Assembly: GCF_002278075.1 (NCBI RefSeq)
Contig: NZ_CP022989.1
Location: forward strand, 2,790,001-2,854,000
Origin: Paraburkholderia aromaticivorans
Lineage (GTDB): Bacteria > Pseudomonadota > Gammaproteobacteria > Burkholderiales > Burkholderiaceae
DNA: 64,000 nucleotides
Direction: 5' to 3'
Shown: piece by piece, positions 53,756 through 63,344 of the stretch
How the letters are laid out: each line of letters starts with the position of its first letter
Position numbering within the stretch: position 1 is the first letter of the stretch
Notes under the pieces: model-generated
The model's input: the letters and a program-made list of their open reading frames with translations, nothing else
Database searches by the model: none
What the model was told of the DNA's origin: nothing
Position numbers and translations under genes: made by a program

Positions 53756-55339
53756 ATGCACGACAAGATTCTGATCCTCGACTTCGGTTCGCAAGTCACC
53801 CAACTGATTGCACGTCGCGTTCGCGAAGCCAACGTGTATTCGGAAATTCACCCGTACGACGTCGATGCGTCGTTCATTCGCGACTTCGCGCCGAAGGGCG
53901 TGATCCTCTCCGGCGGCCCGAGCTCGGTCACCGAAACGGACACGCCGCGCGTGCCGCAAGCCGTGTTCGAACTCGGCGTGCCGGTGCTCGGCATCTGCTA
54001 CGGCATGCAGGCTATGGCCGAGCAGCTCGGCGGCAAGGTCGATATCGGCCACCTGCGCGAGTTCGGTTATGCCGAAGTGCGCGCACGCAACCATACGAGC
54101 CTGCTCGAAGGCATCAGCGATTTCACCACGGCGGAAGGTCATGGCATGTTGAAGGTGTGGATGAGCCACGGCGACAAGGTGCTGGAAATGCCGCCGGGCT
54201 TCGCGCTGATGGCGTCGACGGAATCGTGCCCGATCGCGGCGATGGCCGACGAAAAGCGCCATTTCTACGGCCTGCAGTGGCACCCGGAAGTCACGCATAC
54301 CGTGCAGGGCCGCGCCATGCTCGAACGCTTCGTGCTGAAGATCTGCGGCGCGCGGCCGGATTGGGAAATGGGCCACTATATCGACGAGGCCGTCGCGAAG
54401 ATTCGTGAGCAGGTCGGTCAGGAACACGTGATTCTGGGGCTCTCGGGCGGGGTGGATTCGTCGGTGGCGGCGGCGCTGCTGCACCGCGCGATCGGTGATC
54501 AGCTGACCTGCGTGTTCGTCGACCACGGCCTGCTGCGCCTGAACGAAGCCGAGCAGGTGATGGCGACCTTCGCGGACCACCTGGGCGTGAAGGTGATTCA
54601 CGTCGACGCGAGCGAGGTGTTCCTGCGCAAGCTGGCCGGTGTGACCGATCCGGAAGCGAAGCGCAAGATCATCGGCGCGGAATTCGTCGAGGTGTTCCAG
54701 ACCGAAGCCGGCAAGCTGACCGATGCGAAGTGGCTCGCGCAAGGCACGATTTATCCGGACGTGATCGAATCGGCCGGCAAGGGCAAGAAGGCCACGCAAA
54801 CCATCAAGAGCCACCACAACGTGGGCGGCCTGCCCGAGACGCTGAATCTGAAGCTGCTCGAACCGTTGCGCGAACTGTTCAAGGACGAAGTGCGCGAACT
54901 CGGCGTCAAGCTCGGTTTGCCGCCGGCCATGGTGTACCGCCATCCGTTCCCGGGCCCGGGTCTGGGCGTGCGGATTCTCGGCGAGGTGAAGCGCGATTTC
55001 GCGGACCTGCTGCGCCGAGCGGACGCGATTTTCATCGAGACGCTGCGCACCTTCATCGACAAGGAAACCGGCAAGTCCTGGTACGATCTGACGAGCCAGG
55101 CGTTCGCGGTGTTTCTGCCGGTGAAGAGCGTCGGCGTGATGGGCGACGGCCGCACTTACGAATATGTGGTTGCGCTGCGCGCCGTGCAGACGCTGGACTT
55201 CATGACCGCGCATTGGGCGCATCTGCCGCATGAACTGCTGGGGCATGTGTCGAACCGGATCATCAACGAAGTGCGCGGGATTAACCGGGTGGTGTATGAC
55301 ATCTCGGGTAAGCCGCCGGCGACCATCGAGTGGGAGTGA
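53756..55339 (+). CDS. guaA: GMP synthase (glutamine-hydrolysing)
   Basis: 527 residues. The glutaminase domain has Cys81 in LGICYGMQA and a His-Glu pair in [10 protein letters not shown]. The synthetase domain has the PP-motif [14 protein letters not shown], and the dimerisation domain ends [18 protein letters not shown]. It aminates XMP to GMP. The reading frame is open upstream to 53618, but the conserved start is the ATG at 53756. The 3' end of guaA is a known integration target for genomic islands; the DNA beyond it changes in character. Confidence 0.97.
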
Positions 55340-55951
55340 AAAATCCTGACGAATCAGGGGCTTAGTCGACTCCCGCTGCAGCGCATTCGTTGATGGTGCG
55401 ATAGTTCATGACCGGGTTTCCGGTTCAGTTCGTCCGCTGTCCAAGCCCGGATTTGGACAGGATTTGGACAGGAAACGGCTTGGCAATTGCCAGGCCGTTT
55501 CGCATTGTAGTCGCATAAACAGGTGTGGAGGCGGACTGGCGGGCAGAACCCTGCTGGCGCGACTGGAAGAGCATGGGCGGCATGCCAACTCACGGTTGCG
55601 ATGGCTCCATGCCAGGTGGATTGCTCAAACATACCCTGTAAGACAGTTGCACGTCAGCCGGAGGCAGCTACGGCGCCGTACGATGAGAACCATCCCTCGC
55701 CTGAGAGAAAATTGCTTGCGGGCCTTGGCAAACCACGCTCGGATGCGCCCGCGTCCGGCAGGGTAGAATGAGGCTATGTGGTTTCCATGGTCCATCCAGG
55801 GCGTGGAATCCGAGAGCACGAGTTGCCGGTCCCGTTCCGGCTTAGGTGGTGTCCGTTCCCCTCGCTCGTTTCACGGCTATGTCCTTCAATGACGTGTTCA
55901 TCGCGTCAGGTCAGTGCATCGCCGATCGCAACGATTTTGAGGGTTCATGAC
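55340..55951. other. Junction between guaA and accessory DNA
   Basis: 612 bases without a supported gene. It includes a two-copy tandem repeat of GGATTTGGACA (55449-55459, 55460-55470), then a hairpin 55473-55500 (7-bp outer stem plus 4-bp inner stem). The rest is unrelated to known families by eye. The frames open here are short and lack plausible ribosome sites. Confidence 0.5.
55473..55500 (+). terminator. Possible guaA terminator
   Basis: Imperfect palindrome: AAACGGC (55473-55479) with GCCGTTT (55494-55500), inner TGGC with GCCA, loop AATT. The downstream tract TTTCGCATTGT is short, so termination may be partial. Confidence 0.5.
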
Positions 55952-56773
55952 GTGAATGCTTTCCCCACTTCTTTTTTTCCTGATCAGGTTTCCGATGCAG
56001 CTGGCATCGTGCCGGGTCGAGCGTCATCCGCGACCGGGATCGAATCGCCGGACATCATCAATCAAGACTGCGATGCCACTTCGGCCTCTGCGGTCGACGA
56101 TGACGTCCGGGATCTGGCCAAAATTTTCCCGGCGCGATTCCAGGAGTGGTCTGACTGCCTGTGGGCGGCGCCTGGTGAACTGGTCCTGCTGTCGCTGGGT
56201 ATCGATCCGAAGTCTGCAATTGCAGCGGCCGACCTCGTTTACGCGGCGGAGGAGGTCCCCGGCTATGGGATCCATGAGAAGGAGTATCAGCGCCGGATGG
56301 AGGCGGTTCGGCATGCTGTGCAGGGAGGCCGGTTAGCGATCAAATCGCCAGGGCAACAGGCATCCATACGGGTTCTTGCTTTTCTCCGATGGGCAGCGGC
56401 TTCTTCCTGGCCGATGCCAGAGGGGCTCTCCGTGTTGTCCCGTCATCAGGCCAGGGTTGAACGGCATAGTCACGCCGCTGGATACAGGCAACAGACCGGT
56501 CCCCGTGCTGAGACGCAGCATAGACACCAGCTGTATTTCGAGATCGCCCAGCAGGTGGCGTCTGACGTTCCCAATCTCTCTCGCACTGACCTTGCTCGGC
56601 GCGTCGCACGGAGAGCATCAGATAAGTTGTCGGAGTCTGTAAGCTACCAAACGGTTCGTAACGTGCTGTTTTACAACGAGGATGCACCGCTTCGAGGAGA
56701 GGCCTGGCGAACGTTCCAGGCGAAAGCGAGGGAAGTGCGCCGCAACTGGCCTGTCGGGCAGAATACGCTGTAA
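55952..56773 (+). CDS. Unknown protein upstream of the primase-helicase
   Basis: About 273 residues starting at GTG 55952, eight bases after GAGGG. No family is recognised. Residues near 60-110 (LAKIFPARFQEWSDCLWA, VLLSLGIDPKSA) are moderately conserved-looking; the C-terminal third contains ARRVARRASDKLSESVSYQTVRN, which has helix-turn-helix-like spacing and a basic character. The open frame runs to 55778, but that extension is Cys/Pro-rich and lacks a ribosome site. It is the first gene of the accessory region and 133 bases upstream of the DUF927 gene, so a replication or regulatory accessory role is possible. Confidence 0.6.
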   Translation: MNAFPTSFFPDQVSDAAGIVPGRASSATGIESPDIINQDCDATSASAVDDDVRDLAKIFPARFQEWSDCLWAAPGELVLLSLGIDPKSAIAAADLVYAAEEVPGYGIHEKEYQRRMEAVRHAVQGGRLAIKSPGQQASIRVLAFLRWAAASSWPMPEGLSVLSRHQARVERHSHAAGYRQQTGPRAETQHRHQLYFEIAQQVASDVPNLSRTDLARRVARRASDKLSESVSYQTVRNVLFYNEDAPLRGEAWRTFQAKAREVRRNWPVGQNTL

Positions 56774-56803
56774 GTTATTGAATTATATGGATTGTGAAGA
56801 AAG

Positions 56804-56828
56804 TTGCCTGATTCGTTATGTCAGGCAA
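56804..56828 (+). promoter_or_regulatory. Inverted repeat before the primase-helicase gene
   Basis: TTGCCTGA (56804-56811) and TCAGGCAA (56821-56828) form a perfect 8-bp inverted repeat with a nine-base loop, 79 bases before the ATG at 56907. It could be an operator or a short terminator for the upstream gene. Confidence 0.4.
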
Positions 56829-56906
56829 ATCGGGCGGCCAACATCGGATTCCTAGCGGGTACACGGATACCCCGTGTCACCAGAGCTACATAGCAGGAAT
56901 CCTTGC

Positions 56907-59846
56907 ATGTCTTCATTTTCAGAAACAGTAACGCCCGCCCTGAGTGACGGGCTCACGAACGCTTCGTCCCTTGCCTCGATCAACGGGGGGCCAGGACGGA
57001 TCGATTTCGGGCAGCTTGCCGAACTGGCTCTTGCGAATTTCGCCACGGTCGTCGAGGAGATCCTTGGTCTCGAAGGCGAGTACCGGGGACAGGAGTTCGT
57101 CGCCATTAATCCGAAGCGCGACGACCATGAACTTGGTTCGTTCTCGATCAACGTCGAGTCCGGGAAATACGCCGACTTTGCAATTCTGGACGAGTGCAAG
57201 GGCGGGGACTTGATCGCTCTTGCGAGCTATATCTGGGACTGCCGTCCGATAGAAGCCGCAAAGCAGTTGCAGGAGAAGCTCAGGCCACAGGCTGATGTAC
57301 CGACAGCCTTGGATTTAATTCGAAGTGCTAATCGCATGGGTCGGGAAAGATTCGGCTCGTCGGTCGCATCACAAGTGATGGAACCCATTCCAGACGGGAG
57401 CCCGGAACTTGATGTTCGACGATTCGAGTCGCATGGCTCGACAGTGGAAGAGCGATACGACTACTTGAACACTGATGGAAAGCGGTGCTTCGTTCAGTTG
57501 CGCTTGCGCAGGGCAGATGGCGGCAAGACCTTCATGACGTTGCGTGTTGATAGGCACGAGGACGGTTCGCTTCACTGGACCGGCGGAATGCCGGAGGGTC
57601 AACGCCCACTCTTTGGCTTGAACGCTCTGGCAGGTGCGTGTGATGATCAGCTAGTTTTCGTTGTCGAGGGGGAGAAGGCGGCACTGGCTCTGCAAAAGAT
57701 GCTGCCCTCAGTTGTGGTGGTGACCTCCGCTGGTGGAGCGTCGGCACCATCGAAGACGGACTGGTCTCCGCTCGCAGGGCGCAACGTTGTGATCTGGCGT
57801 GACAACGACGGCCCCGGCCTGAACTATCAGGACAGAGTGGTCCAGCTGATCCGTGCGATTGATCTGAGCACGAGGATCAGTGTGATCGACGTTGAGTCCT
57901 TGTTGCGTACGTTCTGCCCAATGATGGGCTGGGTCTACGACGAAAAAGCTGTAGAACTGAAGGGCTGGGACGCCGCAGATGTCGCGGCACTTGGCTTGGA
58001 CCATTCGGTGATTGCTGAAGTTGTAGCGGCCGCGACGCGAGAGGTATCGGTGGATGGTGTGGCCACAGCCTCGGAGGCGCTGATCGAACCTGAGGGGCCA
58101 CATGTTTCGTGGGCCACTGACACCATGTACTTAGTGAGGGACGGTCGTGTATTGGCTAGCAAGGCAGGAAGGGATGGTCAGCCGTACTCGGTCCCTGTTT
58201 GTTCACGGGTGGACATCGTTCGACAACTCCGCGACGACGTGAGCACCGGGTGGAGTCTTGAGCTCGTCCTGCATACTCCGGACGGCAGAACGAAGACGCA
58301 TATTCTGCCGCGCTCTCGCTTGTCTGACCTCCGTACGCTGAAAGCCGAAATGAACGATCTCGGTGTCATCGTCTATAACTGGGCCGAGTTCCAGCAGTAC
58401 CTTGAGCATGCAATTCCTCGGGACACGCATCGGCTGGTACGGAACGTGGGCTGGCATGACGGCGTTTTCGTACAAGCCGATAGGGTGTATGGCGCGGCGT
58501 CGGAGTCGCTGGCCCTCGATAGCGATGCCCCGGCGAGCAAGGCTTTCTGGCAACATGGTGAACTTGCGAGGTGGAATCGAGATGTCGGTCGCTTGTGTGC
58601 GAGCAATTCCCGACTGATGCTGTCGGTTTGCACTTCTCTGGCCGGACCGTTGCTAGGCTTGCTCGGGGTTGAGAACGGCGGCATTCACCTCGTTGGTCCG
58701 AGCAGCGTTGGGAAGACTACGTCCTTGCGTGTAGCTGCATCCGTTTGGGGCGAGCCTACTCGTATTATTCAGTCTTGGCGTTCGACTTCGAACGGGCTGG
58801 AAGTAGTTGCGGCCGGCTTGAATGACAGCGTGCTGTTGCTCGATGAACTGAATCAAGCTTCTCCGCAGGAGGCCGGCGAGGCCGTTTACATGCTGGGCAA
58901 TGGTCAAGGAAAGCAAAGGATGGGGCGCTCTGGGCATGCCGCCCGACTCCTTCAGTGGAGACTGCTGTTCATGTCAACGGGAGAGATTCCGTTGCAGCAG
59001 CACATCGAGTCGGCTGGCCGGATGGCTCGGGCCGGCATGGAAGTTCGACTATTGAACGTGCCTGCCGACGCCGGTCACGGCTTTGGTCTATTCGATTCGC
59101 TTGCTGGCTTCGAGAGCAGCAAAGAGCTGGCTGATCATTTGCATACATCGACGTTGCAAGTCTTTGGTGTGGCGGGACACACGTGGCTGTCGTACCTCGT
59201 AGGGCAAATGGCAGAGCAGGGGTATGCCGTGTTTTGCGAAGGATTGCAGACGCGCCTGGGGGGCATCGAGAATCTGTTTGTTCGCTCGAATGCCGACGGT
59301 CTGGTAAATCGTGCTGCTCGGCGTTTCGCCATATTAGCATTGGCTGGCGAAATGGCGGAACGAGCAGGAATTGGAGGCTGGGCGGCAGATGAGTCGATCG
59401 TAATGTTGCAGCATTGCTTCGAAGCATGGATCGTGGAGCGTGGCGGTACCGGGTCTAGCGAGGAAGCACAGGCGCTACGACAGGTCCAGCGGTTCTTCGA
59501 GCAGCATGGTCAGTCAGCGTTTCAGCGCGTAGGTTGGCCAGACGGACTTGAAGGTGCTGAGCAGTCTCGTGTGATTTCCAATCGAGCCGGATACTATGGC
59601 TCGACAAAGACCGGTGGCATGTTTTTCGTGTTGCCTGAGCCATTCAAGAGCCGTGTGTGCGAGGGGTTAAACGTGAAGCTCGTCGTTGATGCGCTTCGGA
59701 AACACGGGCTCCTGTTGCGTGATGCGAGTAATACGGCTCGGGTACCGGATCTGCCGAACGCGATTCGTGCGTACTGGATAAGCGAGCGTATCATTGGTTT
59801 TGGTCCTGGGGAACCGCAGGCCGAGCAAGATTTGGCGATTGCCTGA
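56907..59846 (+). CDS. Toprim/DUF927-type primase-helicase of a mobile element
   Basis: 979 residues. The N-terminal 120 residues resemble a degenerate CHC2 primase finger without its cysteines (GSFSINVESGKYADFAI). A Toprim domain follows, with VFVVEGEKAALAL near 249 and VVIWRDNDGPG near 295. A DUF927-type superfamily 3-like helicase domain has Walker A GPSSVGKTT (about 597-605) and Walker B VLLLDELNQ (about 643). This combination is used by plasmids, satellites and integrated elements to start their own replication. ATG 56907 has AGGA upstream; a GTG at 56874 is a weaker alternative. Just downstream lies a candidate origin. Confidence 0.82.
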   Translation: MSSFSETVTPALSDGLTNASSLASINGGPGRIDFGQLAELALANFATVVEEILGLEGEYRGQEFVAINPKRDDHELGSFSINVESGKYADFAILDECKGGDLIALASYIWDCRPIEAAKQLQEKLRPQADVPTALDLIRSANRMGRERFGSSVASQVMEPIPDGSPELDVRRFESHGSTVEERYDYLNTDGKRCFVQLRLRRADGGKTFMTLRVDRHEDGSLHWTGGMPEGQRPLFGLNALAGACDDQLVFVVEGEKAALALQKMLPSVVVVTSAGGASAPSKTDWSPLAGRNVVIWRDNDGPGLNYQDRVVQLIRAIDLSTRISVIDVESLLRTFCPMMGWVYDEKAVELKGWDAADVAALGLDHSVIAEVVAAATREVSVDGVATASEALIEPEGPHVSWATDTMYLVRDGRVLASKAGRDGQPYSVPVCSRVDIVRQLRDDVSTGWSLELVLHTPDGRTKTHILPRSRLSDLRTLKAEMNDLGVIVYNWAEFQQYLEHAIPRDTHRLVRNVGWHDGVFVQADRVYGAASESLALDSDAPASKAFWQHGELARWNRDVGRLCASNSRLMLSVCTSLAGPLLGLLGVENGGIHLVGPSSVGKTTSLRVAASVWGEPTRIIQSWRSTSNGLEVVAAGLNDSVLLLDELNQASPQEAGEAVYMLGNGQGKQRMGRSGHAARLLQWRLLFMSTGEIPLQQHIESAGRMARAGMEVRLLNVPADAGHGFGLFDSLAGFESSKELADHLHTSTLQVFGVAGHTWLSYLVGQMAEQGYAVFCEGLQTRLGGIENLFVRSNADGLVNRAARRFAILALAGEMAERAGIGGWAADESIVMLQHCFEAWIVERGGTGSSEEAQALRQVQRFFEQHGQSAFQRVGWPDGLEGAEQSRVISNRAGYYGSTKTGGMFFVLPEPFKSRVCEGLNVKLVVDALRKHGLLLRDASNTARVPDLPNAIRAYWISERIIGFGPGEPQAEQDLAIA

Positions 59847-60201
59847 TAGCCGGGTTAGGTGACGGACGTGACGCGGCCGTCACCAACCTGATTGCGTAGA
59901 AACCAAGGCAATCAAAGGCTGTGACAATGTGACATTTGTGACGGATGGAATTAGTATTCCTCTATTTTTCCAGGGAGGGCGACTGTCAGGTATAAAACCC
60001 TACTATCCGGCAAGTCGATAAGAGTAATCTCTGTAAACCGTCACAAATGTCACATTGTCACAGCCTTGCTGGTCAAGGGGTCTGCAGAAATACACTTGTC
60101 ACGTGGCCGTCACCGTGGTCACGATCGTACTGCTTGGGGCTTTCCGATTTGCCATTTGCGGATAACAATGGTTTAGTTTAGCTGCTGAATTACGCTAAGA
60201 A
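59847..60201. other. Candidate origin: palindromic array of GTGAC boxes
   Basis: 355 bases without a gene, between the primase-helicase and a rightward gene. Two arms of 30 bases are perfect inverted copies (59915-59944 and 60038-60067), separated by 93 AT-richer bases. Each arm holds three TGTGAC-type boxes (59920, 59928, 59937 on the left). Flanking boxes continue outward: GGTGAC, CGTGAC and CGTCACC at 59858-59884, and TGTCAC, CGTCACC and GGTCAC at 60097-60122. The mirror layout is typical of an initiator-binding origin; an operator is the alternative. Confidence 0.6.
59915..60067. repeat. Perfect 30-bp inverted repeat
   Basis: Left arm 59915-59944, right arm 60038-60067; the 30 bases are exact reverse complements. 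The left arm reads AAGGCTGTGACAATGTGACA and continues with TTTGTGACGG. The loop of 93 bases is AT-rich. Confidence 0.85.
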
Positions 60202-60960
60202 ATGGACAAAAATCAAGCGTTGATATTGCTGCGGGGCTTGCTCGGAGAAATCACCACCTCCACTGATTCGGCTGCCCTGGATCGTTACGGTAGCCTGAGG
60301 GAAGTCGACGCCAAGGTTCGGGAAGCGAAGCACGTCTTCGAGGCGGTCGAAGGTTTGCCTCGGACGTTTGTCGGCGAAATGTCAACCGATACCGACTTCG
60401 ATGTGCAAAGTCGCAGGGTCCGTTTAGAGGCACTGGCTGGCTACATCCGTAGTGCAATCAAATTCATTGAATCGGGCTCGATCGCTAAGCCTCAAAAAGT
60501 TATCCTGTCTCCCCCTGACGTCTCGAAGCTCACAGTCACCCTTCCGAATCTCAAGGACGCGATCGAACGGCGATGGAGAGAAGCGCAGAAGTGCATCCAC
60601 GTTGAATGCTTCACTTCCGCCGTGATCATGATGGGCAGCATCCTCGAAGGCCTTTTGCTAGCACGTGCCAATCTCGCTCCTGCGGAGGCATATCAATCAC
60701 CGAAAGCGCCACGTGATCGACAAGACAAAGTCCCGGCGATACAAGATTGGAGCTTGAACTCGTTGATCGATGTTGCCGTTGACGTCGGGTGGCTGAAGAC
60801 TGACCGTGGAAAATTCGGTCATGCATTGCGTGAATCGAGAAACGTCGTACATCCGTGGGTGGAGGTAACGACACGAGCGAACTTCGATCTTGCCACGTGC
60901 AAGACCTCGTGGGGTGTGCTAGAGGCGTCAGTGGATGATCTGCTCGCCTCAGTTCGCTGA
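60202..60960 (+). CDS. HEPN-like protein beside the candidate origin
   Basis: 252 residues, mostly alpha-helical. The C-terminal 120 residues resemble HEPN or DUF4145-like helical domains: SAVIMMGSILEGLLLARANL, then SLNSLIDVAVDVGWL, and a R-x6-H motif in LRESRNVVHPW (Arg210 to His217) as in HEPN RNases. HEPN domains occur in toxins and phage-defence proteins. The N-terminal 100 residues are unassigned. No signal peptide. No antitoxin gene is obvious; it ends 216 bases before the convergent PLD gene. The family is inferred from motif form, not from a search. Confidence 0.55.
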   Translation: MDKNQALILLRGLLGEITTSTDSAALDRYGSLREVDAKVREAKHVFEAVEGLPRTFVGEMSTDTDFDVQSRRVRLEALAGYIRSAIKFIESGSIAKPQKVILSPPDVSKLTVTLPNLKDAIERRWREAQKCIHVECFTSAVIMMGSILEGLLLARANLAPAEAYQSPKAPRDRQDKVPAIQDWSLNSLIDVAVDVGWLKTDRGKFGHALRESRNVVHPWVEVTTRANFDLATCKTSWGVLEASVDDLLASVR

Positions 60961-61176: not shown

Positions 61177-62145
61177 CTAATTAAACTCATTCAGGAACTT
61201 CTCAACCGGAATCAGTTCGCCTTCCGCTCCCCCCGGGAGGGACCATTTGGCCTTCCTCAGGCGTTTCTCCAACGCTGCGCATTCCCGGTTGCCGAACTGT
61301 CGTCCGGCGAGTTCATCGATCGGCGAGCAGAGGTGAAGGATCATCTCTTCCCCCTTGTTGTACCCAGCAGTTCGCCTTGCTCGAATTACATCTCCGATTC
61401 CGTATGCCCCGTCTACCCGAATGTCTCCTTCCGGGCCAGAATATACCGATATGACCTGTTGCCCAGTCTTCATACCATCCCAGTCCTCATAAAAGCTGAT
61501 CTCAGTATCAGTATTCAGGTGGTTGGTCTGCCGCCACTTCGAGAAAGCGCGCGTTGCCTGCGGAGTCGGATCAAGTCGATACGCGGCGACGTATACATTT
61601 CGGCCCTTTAATTGCTCTGGCGTCATCGACAGGATCGAGTCATTCCCCTTGGTGCGAGCGATTCGGTTGCGAACCCGACGACTCCAGTTCAGCTTAGCTT
61701 GCCGGAGCATAGCGGGAGTTATCTTCTGTCCGCAGTGCGCCCACTGATCATCGAACCACGTCTGCATTTTCCGCACATCCGTGACTTTATCAGTGACATA
61801 ACCGGCCTCGTGCCATCCGTCGAACTCCTCTTCCTCAATGTTTAGGCCATTGGTGGAGAAGTTTGCGGAGCCCACGATAGCTGAGTTAGGTCCGACGATG
61901 ACTTTGGCGTGAAGATCAGGACAATGCCGCACGTCGTAGCCCCGCTTGAGAATTTCCTCGATCTCCGCCGGGTTCGTCCCGCCGCTTGTCAGGTTGCAGA
62001 GAATCCTGAAAGTCTTGGCGGATTTCTTCAAATACTTGGATGCGCCCTTACCCCAAAAAGCGACAGCAATATCAATGGAATGGCTGTCTTCGATCAACTT
62101 ATCGACGTATTGTTTGTATTCATTCTCGTCAGAACATATGAACAT
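61177..62145 (-). CDS. PLD-family nuclease-like protein
   Basis: About 322 residues. A single phospholipase-D type HxK motif (His79, Lys81) lies in CPDLHAKVIVGPNSAIVGSA, followed by NFSTNGL; the usual Asp four residues after the Lys is not present, so activity is uncertain. One motif per chain suggests a dimer as in BfiI-like and Nuc-type nucleases. The C-terminal half (VYVAAYRLDPTPQATRAF) is unassigned. GGGGAA five bases before the ATG at 62145 sets the start; an upstream TTG at 62187 is possible. It lies 74 bases downstream of the DUF3644 gene on the same strand, so the two are probably an operon. Confidence 0.75.
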   Translation of the reverse strand: MFICSDENEYKQYVDKLIEDSHSIDIAVAFWGKGASKYLKKSAKTFRILCNLTSGGTNPAEIEEILKRGYDVRHCPDLHAKVIVGPNSAIVGSANFSTNGLNIEEEEFDGWHEAGYVTDKVTDVRKMQTWFDDQWAHCGQKITPAMLRQAKLNWSRRVRNRIARTKGNDSILSMTPEQLKGRNVYVAAYRLDPTPQATRAFSKWRQTNHLNTDTEISFYEDWDGMKTGQQVISVYSGPEGDIRVDGAYGIGDVIRARRTAGYNKGEEMILHLCSPIDELAGRQFGNRECAALEKRLRKAKWSLPGGAEGELIPVEKFLNEFN

Positions 62146-62219
62146 CGTTTCCCCGTTGTATTCTGAAAACCTGATCAAAGTCCCCAATGCGGCTGACGAG
62201 CAGTCCAGTAACTATGGGG

Positions 62220-63203
62220 CTATTGATACTGAGCTGCGTTGTCGGCGCAATGAGCGCTCACCTGCTCGATCCACGGTTCATACCAGTACCACGTTTTCAC
62301 AACCAGCGTGCCCAACCCCTTCGCCGGATTCTTTGCATCGACTTGTTTCCAGAACTGCGTGTGGTGGTGCATGCTGAATCTTGGATAGCCAGCTGCCTGC
62401 ATTGCCGCTACAACCTGCTTCGGTAGATACTTCGGTCGTTCAGTTTCTTTGATAACAGCGTATTGCGCATTGATGCCCTTCGCAAGCTCAGAATCCGCTT
62501 TGACGAACTCGATAACCTGATCCGCCTGACCCTTGCGGTTCGCAGTCTTCGGAACGAACAGTATGCGGTAGGCAAACCGGGGGTCATTGAACTCGTCTGC
62601 AGTCAACTTGGCGTCGAAACCGGTGATGAATGCAAGAATGTGCCCCGGCAACCCTACAGTTTGATCGAGAAGGTTGACGTGATCGCGAGTGATCGAAGAG
62701 AACTGCAGGCTGAACGCTAGATGCTTGTCGATGCCGTGCTCATCGCCGAAAAGATTTTTGATGTGATCGTTGTAGTTCAGGCAGCAGGCCTGGAAGCGAG
62801 CACTCAAAAACTCATCCAAACGCTTCGTCATCTGGTGTTCGATTTCGTGCCGCAGCTCAATCAAGAAGCGCAGATTGTTCGCCGCGTTTTTGTCAACTGG
62901 AGATGCCTTATCGTTGAGACAGCGCTCAAGCTCCCAGTACTTCTCCGCTCCATTGGCAGTGTGATCGAATCGCTTCCTCTTGCCGACCATCCGGTAGTAG
63001 CGATACTCGATGCCGTGCTTGCGGTAGTTGGCGTGAAGAAGATATGTCCAAGATATGACCATCAAGACCACGTAGATTTCAGCCTTGAAGGTGATCGCTG
63101 GGTTGTTGAAAACTTGCACCGCAGCCAAGGCTGCTTCACGAGATTTCTTCAGCAGTTCCTTAGAGACGGAACCGATTGTTCGAATTCGCTTCTTGGCTGC
63201 CAT
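62220..63203 (-). CDS. DUF3644 (HEPN-type) protein
   Basis: 327 residues. The N-terminal stretch KSREAALAAVQVFNNPAITF and YVVLMVISWTYLLHA match the DUF3644 family, and the HEPN-type R-x4-H motif is LIELRHEIEHQ (Arg118 to His123). DUF3644 proteins are HEPN-related and often found in defence islands; RNase activity is inferred, not shown. A second half of about 190 residues has no recognised domain. GGGGGAA before the ATG at 63203 sets the start. It is preceded on the same strand by the protease gene. Confidence 0.78.
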   Translation of the reverse strand: MAAKKRIRTIGSVSKELLKKSREAALAAVQVFNNPAITFKAEIYVVLMVISWTYLLHANYRKHGIEYRYYRMVGKRKRFDHTANGAEKYWELERCLNDKASPVDKNAANNLRFLIELRHEIEHQMTKRLDEFLSARFQACCLNYNDHIKNLFGDEHGIDKHLAFSLQFSSITRDHVNLLDQTVGLPGHILAFITGFDAKLTADEFNDPRFAYRILFVPKTANRKGQADQVIEFVKADSELAKGINAQYAVIKETERPKYLPKQVVAAMQAAGYPRFSMHHHTQFWKQVDAKNPAKGLGTLVVKTWYWYEPWIEQVSAHCADNAAQYQ

Positions 63204-63344
63204 GCTTCCCCCGACATTCAGCATCAGACCAGATCACAACCCTCGAATCAAACGACAATCTGCAGCAGTCGACAATGAACAATTCAAAACGGTTAAGCTT
63301 AGCTGGTCCATTCCTCGTGACCCAGCGGCGCCTGGTTCAATTCG

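Follow-up and report, generated by a model that had tools for sequence, protein, structure and literature searches.

Staphylococcus aureus pathogenicity islands (SaPIs) and Gram-negative phage-inducible chromosomal islands (PICIs) carry origins in which two sets of iterons flank an AT-rich region behind the rep/pri gene, a layout which is stated to be shared by no other known bacterial replicon (PMC6092414). The same paper reports that origin function of the PICI EcCICFT073 was demonstrated by plasmid maintenance (PMC6092414). The Cch protein carries a DUF927 domain and is related to SaPIbov1 Rep. Here, a 64,000-nucleotide stretch of the Paraburkholderia aromaticivorans chromosome (contig NZ_CP022989.1, positions 2,790,001 to 2,854,000; the window) was analysed, in which a mirror array of GTGAC boxes follows a Toprim/DUF927 primase-helicase gene inside an integrated element. 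A preliminary description of this DNA had proposed the array as a candidate origin of an integrated element, with phage P4 as the model. The element ends, the primase-helicase and the recurrence of such arrays support the proposal, and among known systems the SaPI/PICI origin is a nearer match than P4. The array is very probably the replication origin of the 32.9-kb element, with the Toprim/DUF927 protein as its initiator; this function we infer.

Judged by its sequence, the array has the features of the SaPI/PICI origin type. It follows immediately 3' of the DUF927 gene, the distance from the stop codon to the first box being 12 bp, which matches the position behind rep/pri. As counterpart of the two iteron sets around an AT-rich region, there are 6 + 6 boxes around a centre with an AT fraction of 0.59 (the DUF927 gene has 0.42 and the window as a whole 0.37), although this centre is not the local maximum.

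A mirrored box array within a guaA-integrated element

Twelve GTGAC/GTCAC boxes were mapped, three in each arm of an inverted repeat and three on each outer side (Table 1), in agreement with the three per arm and about three per outer side counted earlier. The arms, described before as exact inverted copies around a 93-base centre, are indeed exact reverse complements, and they form the only perfect inverted repeat in the window with arms longer than 14 bp and a gap of at most 400 bp. While the window holds 143 such 5-mers, the richest other 300-bp stretch (starting within the first 59,400 bases) has four, and at window density 0.54 boxes would be expected per 264 bp against the 12 seen (Poisson P 8e-13, the place having been picked post hoc). 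The centres of paired boxes sum to 119981-119982, so that all six pairs are mirrored within 1 bp. Only the arms are palindromic in sequence, yet the mirrored box positions extend outside them. Each half has six boxes, in the order 2-1-3|3-1-2, with spacings of 9, 11, 42, 8, 9 and 9, 11, 41, 8, 9 bp and 97 bp between the inner boxes. No tRNA or Rfam element was found, and a search found no similar DNA in plasmids or phages.

The suggestion that this is an integrated element is borne out by the 3' end of guaA, 96 bp of which recur as a perfect direct repeat. The attL copy lies in the window, and an identical attR copy (zero mismatches) lies outside it at G000:C1:2878146-2878241, just beyond a tyrosine integrase gene at the far end of the 32,902 bp enclosed by the repeats. 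A query for a clean empty guaA site matched 28 of 31 genomes and found none; outside the own genome, the main match was to the guaA end and covered no more than 115 of 815 bases, with a few short pieces matching further along.

The gene directly before the array does encode the kind of protein first proposed. Pfam matches DUF927 in its product (1.3e-64), and a structure model aligns with the DnaG and T7 gp4 primase domains at residues ∼164-390 and with Cch and SaPIbov1 Rep at residues 403-966, a predicted fold that places the protein with the SaPIbov1/Cch-type Rep helicases. The modelled C-terminal domain consists of a helix, a hairpin, two helices and wing-like strands; residue limits for this domain shift by 11 between analyses, reflecting 990- or 979-residue numbering. 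The C-terminal piece was also folded in isolation, and that model was not used (predicted local distance difference test score 38). An upstream 273-residue protein had been named as another possible binder of the array. The upstream open reading frame (ORF; 331 aa) is an unlikely initiator and was rejected: it has no Pfam, PHROG, NCBIfam or PADLOC match at 0.001, and among 141 genomes of the genus searched it is present only in its own.

Table 1. Array, initiator gene and attachment site, in window positions
Feature	Position	Strand	Basis
12-box mirror array, predicted origin	59859..60122	none	exact repeat, box positions, mirror register, Poisson
Left outer boxes 59859(+), 59868(+), 59879(-)	59859..59883		box positions
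Left 30-bp arm, boxes 59921, 59929, 59938	59915..59944	+	exact inverted repeat
93-bp AT-richer centre (AT 0.59), predicted melting region	59945..60037		base composition
Right 30-bp arm, boxes 60040, 60049, 60057 reversed in orientation	60038..60067	-	exact inverted repeat
Right outer boxes 60098, 60109, 60118, all GTCAC	60098..60122		box positions
Toprim/DUF927 primase-helicase gene, 990 aa (979 aa if start = 56907, as in P0001); predicted initiator	56874..59846	+	
Gene part coding the C-terminal domain, residues 851-968 of the 979-aa form; predicted box reader	59457..59810	+	
attL, last 96 bp of guaA including stop	55244..55339	+	exact 96-bp direct repeat; guaA by Pfam

Arrays behind other DUF927 genes

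If the array serves the DUF927 protein, similar arrays should recur behind related genes, and the preliminary description had asked whether they always do, taking homologous loci without an array as evidence against an origin; most loci turned out the opposite way. A survey of 113 DUF927 loci scored the density of all hexamers in 600-bp regions against 50 shuffles; duplicates of the window (L001-L003, L034, L114) and Toprim-only loci (L028-L031, L033, L137, L139-L143) were excluded, and weak and broken DUF927 loci were kept. The 600 bp behind the gene beat 50 of 50 shuffles in 82 of the 113 loci, as compared to 2/113 for the last 600 bp of the gene and 3/84 for the 600 bp upstream. One of the two gene-end positives is L124, whose ORF may run into its own array (13 hexamer copies). 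Clustering at 70% identity left at least one positive locus in 40 of 64 clusters. Across loci, 41 different leading hexamers were found, some being shifted readings of a single box. Plasmid and phage records read whole were positive in 11 of 14 cases (L086-L088, L091-L096, L098, L099), including two linear plasmid records with protelomerase genes (L091 and L093, inverted-repeat gap 84 bp each). Toprim-only proteins served as a negative control, in which 10 of 11 had too little downstream DNA and the remaining one was negative. Arrays are also suggested in the viral contigs L144 and L145, read without a shuffle test.

Among close relatives, the box and the C-terminal domain seem to change together, to judge from sequence comparison. 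For pairs with a helicase identity of at least 0.6 (n = 101, near-identical loci collapsed), the residual of C-terminal identity, given helicase identity, was +0.056 when the box was the same (n = 27) and -0.021 when it differed (n = 74), a difference reached by 0 of 5000 binned label shuffles, although the pairs are not independent. In the clearest case, L046 and L049 differ at 2 of 362 helicase positions and 23 of 110 C-terminal positions, and their top hexamers are CCTCCA and TCTCCA. Because it diverges where the box changes among close relatives, the C-terminal domain is the predicted box reader.

Layouts were compared using boxes chosen after the hexamer scans, so that these counts are descriptive. 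Eight loci, selected for a shared layout and several of them from a single clade, have the arrangement FFF-R-FF|RR-F-RRR (L018 and L081 after one extra box each was set aside); the remaining loci have different layouts or fewer boxes. Their 16 halves have mean spacings of 8.9, 8.9, 31.5, 22.5 and 8.9 bp (standard deviation 0.3-1.2), and the central gap ranges from 12 to 46 bp (standard deviation 10.9). Same-strand spacings of at most 13 bp equalled 9 bp in 118 of 168 cases (31 loci, hand-picked boxes). Six boxes per half would fit one hexamer per half.

These features suggest how the origin may work. The initiator would be a primase fused to a hexameric helicase of the SaPIbov1-Rep/Cch type with a C-terminal DNA-binding domain, which would recognise the GTGAC boxes. 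Each six-box half-array may place one hexamer, the two hexamers facing each other, after which the AT-richer centre would melt and the rings would load and move apart, giving bidirectional replication; the fused primase would start synthesis with the host polymerase, and the element would be able to excise. A loading geometry common to DUF927 elements can be offered only tentatively. It would consist of two rigid six-box half-origins with one box per helicase subunit, the spacing near 9 bp giving turns of ∼50-60 degrees as in a six-fold ring, around a melting region of free length. Specificity would lie in the C-terminal domain and its box, exchangeable as a pair, yielding many orthogonal initiator-origin codes in plasmids, satellites and islands, and some elements would have a second platform.

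A second array and alternative readings

A second mirror array with the same box lies outside the window (G000:C1:2876584-2876840; 12584-12840 of L035). It holds 10 GTGAC/GTCAC boxes in 401 bp, whereas 500 shuffles averaged 1.8 and never exceeded 6. Its right half has spacings of 8, 11, 43, 8 and 9 bp. The left half, spaced at 9, 54, 8 and 9 bp, lacks a box in one slot and has ATGAC in place of another box. Between the two arrays, the similarity of three inter-box segments does not exceed that of shuffles. In circular form, the two arrays would be 5.9 kb apart. This arrangement may resemble that of phage P4, which needs two sites, ori plus crr, and whose alpha protein is a primase-helicase with iterons. 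A two-site system, in which array 1 serves as the origin and array 2 for copy control or as a second, crr-like cis site, both bound by the same initiator, would extend the origin proposal and is a real but minority prospect. The shared box and register and the 5.9-kb distance favour it, as do second own-box clusters in two of 14 other records scanned (5 boxes in L086, 7 in L096); L091 has an additional own-box cluster inside its DUF927 gene. In a reading of 19 loci that took in up to ∼20 kb of either flank, however, the window's element alone has a second own-box cluster (0 of 18 others), and array 2 could be a relic of another element's origin.

Far less probable is that the array is an operator or silencer, taking no part in replication, whose GTGAC boxes are bound by a regulator of the DUF927 operon or of the gene (252 aa) that starts at 60202. 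The array is directly 5' of that next gene and overlaps a single weak sigma-70-like match, where 0.4 would be expected, and the second array sits between a small ORF that reads as helix-turn-helix-like in translation, next to a 105-aa ORF, and the integrase gene. Against this, the significant arrays of L087, L091 and L093 lie between convergent genes and so upstream of neither neighbour, and arrays are rare 5' of the DUF927 gene (the 3/84 above). GTGAC-type 5-mers number only two in 55300-56900, one of them at the gene start, twelve boxes across 264 bp are many for an operator, and box changes follow the DUF927 C-terminus among close relatives. An RNA-level terminator or attenuator, suggested by a perfect inverted repeat behind a gene, is very unlikely indeed, given the 93-nt loop, the lack of any terminator-like match or of any Rfam match at gathering score, and the persistence of mirrored box positions outside the pairing arms.

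Several observations nevertheless weigh against an origin as proposed here. The mirror symmetry noted at the outset holds for position, but orientation is mirrored in only 5 of 6 pairs, the third outer pair (59879/60098) matching by position alone. The centre is AT-richer than the gene and the window, in line with the first description, but a 60-bp stretch starting at ∼60154-60172 is richer still (AT 0.65-0.67), and the centre of the second array is not AT-rich (0.46). Recurrence is frequent rather than invariable: in 31 of the 113 loci, the 600 bp behind the gene hold no significant array. Part of these negatives are short or broken genes. In L089 and L090, boxes cluster past a small gene (without a shuffle test), and L090 also carries a repM gene. 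The closest relatives of the protein, those of its own subfamily, are 53-67% identical, and the survey rests on more distant loci. Twenty closely related loci of one genus (L046, L048-L060, L063-L065, L067-L069), counted in the survey with 5-7 boxes each, yield no mirror score, that of L046 being 1.0. In a class-level set of 23 loci outside the test set-up, density was significant in 13, of which L129 (CAGCAG) may be coding repetition, and 7 had a mirror score of 5 or more (no more than 1 of 100 shuffles), a score threshold fixed after the first mirror scan. The co-divergence has its own exceptions. At helicase identities of at least 0.98, L046 is a member of each of the 18 different-box pairs (C-terminal identity 0.74-0.84), and the values for same-box pairs extend down to 0.81; L019 and L023 differ in box at a C-terminal identity of 0.81 (helicase 0.71); and below a helicase identity of 0.6 the trend is absent or reversed (same/different box by bin: 0.31/0.28, 0.31/0.36, 0.44/0.45). 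In GC skew across nine circular records, the 3' end of the gene lies near the cumulative maximum in five (rank 0.87-0.99) and not the minimum, perhaps a matter of gene-strand bias.

GC skew was dropped as an origin marker, the array lying mostly away from the cumulative minimum; two of the nine records (L089, L097) have no array behind the gene, and in L095 the skew minimum falls inside the array. The related Burkholderiaceae loci L006-L009 and L066, like the twenty listed above, have looser boxes (GGGAAC, GGAGAC, TCTCCA), mirror scores of 0 to 2.5 and no mirror layout.

Besides the DUF927 gene, the element carries genes for a type I restriction R subunit, a DUF3644 protein, a protein that weakly matches phospholipase D (PLD), a large protein that weakly matches reverse transcriptase, an insertion sequence transposase, a Gp3-like factor, YqaJ and DUF932. 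Beside the array, 61177-63224 encodes the PLD-like protein, which also has weak matches to DrmC and DpdK, its PLD match being weak too, and the DUF3644 protein (PADLOC PDC-S19, 9.7e-166), candidate defence genes by these matches. The 252-aa ORF directly after the array (60202-60960) has no Pfam, PHROGs, PADLOC or NCBIfam match at 0.001. Further along, the restriction R subunit is followed by a 1070-aa protein with the reverse-transcriptase match (RVT_1 4.9e-05, below cut-off; L034 13385-19776), and a 581-aa protein has a deoxycytidylate-deaminase-type domain and a weak AAA match (L035 6926-8668). Among the 14 element proteins scanned with Pfam, with many ORFs outside that scan, no AlpA/Stl-type regulator, phage packaging or interference genes were found.

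Relation to known replicons

Compared with the SaPI/PICI origin type as described, the array and its element are a variant with a Toprim fusion, a box of its own, a second array and a 33-kb island. The helicase is fused to a Toprim primase, whereas the SaPIbov1 primase is reported to be an archaeo-eukaryotic primase. Set beside the published description of SaPIs, in which SaPIbov1 Rep is of the DUF927 type, the window's element has another box, a length of 32.9 kb and a second array. Unlike in Gram-negative PICIs, DUF927 arrays occur here in plasmid-filed records and in linear plasmids with protelomerase genes, and the window's array lies in an island with no capsid gene among the 14 proteins scanned; a whole PICI is expected to span about 10-20 kb as compared to 32.9 kb. 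In staphylococcal cassette chromosome mec (SCCmec), the Cch chain (603 aa) has no aligned Toprim part, and Cch2 belongs to another helicase family with three reported iterons. The pRN1 protein orf904 offers a further likeness, with an origin behind the primase-helicase gene and a stem-loop with a long loop (PMC4234260). According to the same paper, however, pRN1 depends on the stem-loop and its protein gave no specific gel-shift binding (PMC4234260), whereas the window's boxes are mirrored outside the arms too. No literature on a six-box half or on box/C-terminal pairing was found by title or abstract start, most subscription papers being outside the search.

For mobile elements, the way in which self-loading helicases come to sit head to head on duplex DNA is an open question. 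The natural set of many-box arrays (41 top hexamers), together with near-identical helicases that differ in box and C-terminus, would make both a recognition code and the one-hexamer-per-half arrangement testable. DUF927 genes of mobilizable islands are described as unnecessary for mobilization, with a role that has stayed elusive (PMC7449626), and a replication module is the function suggested here for them. If borne out, the PICI type of origin would extend beyond PICIs.
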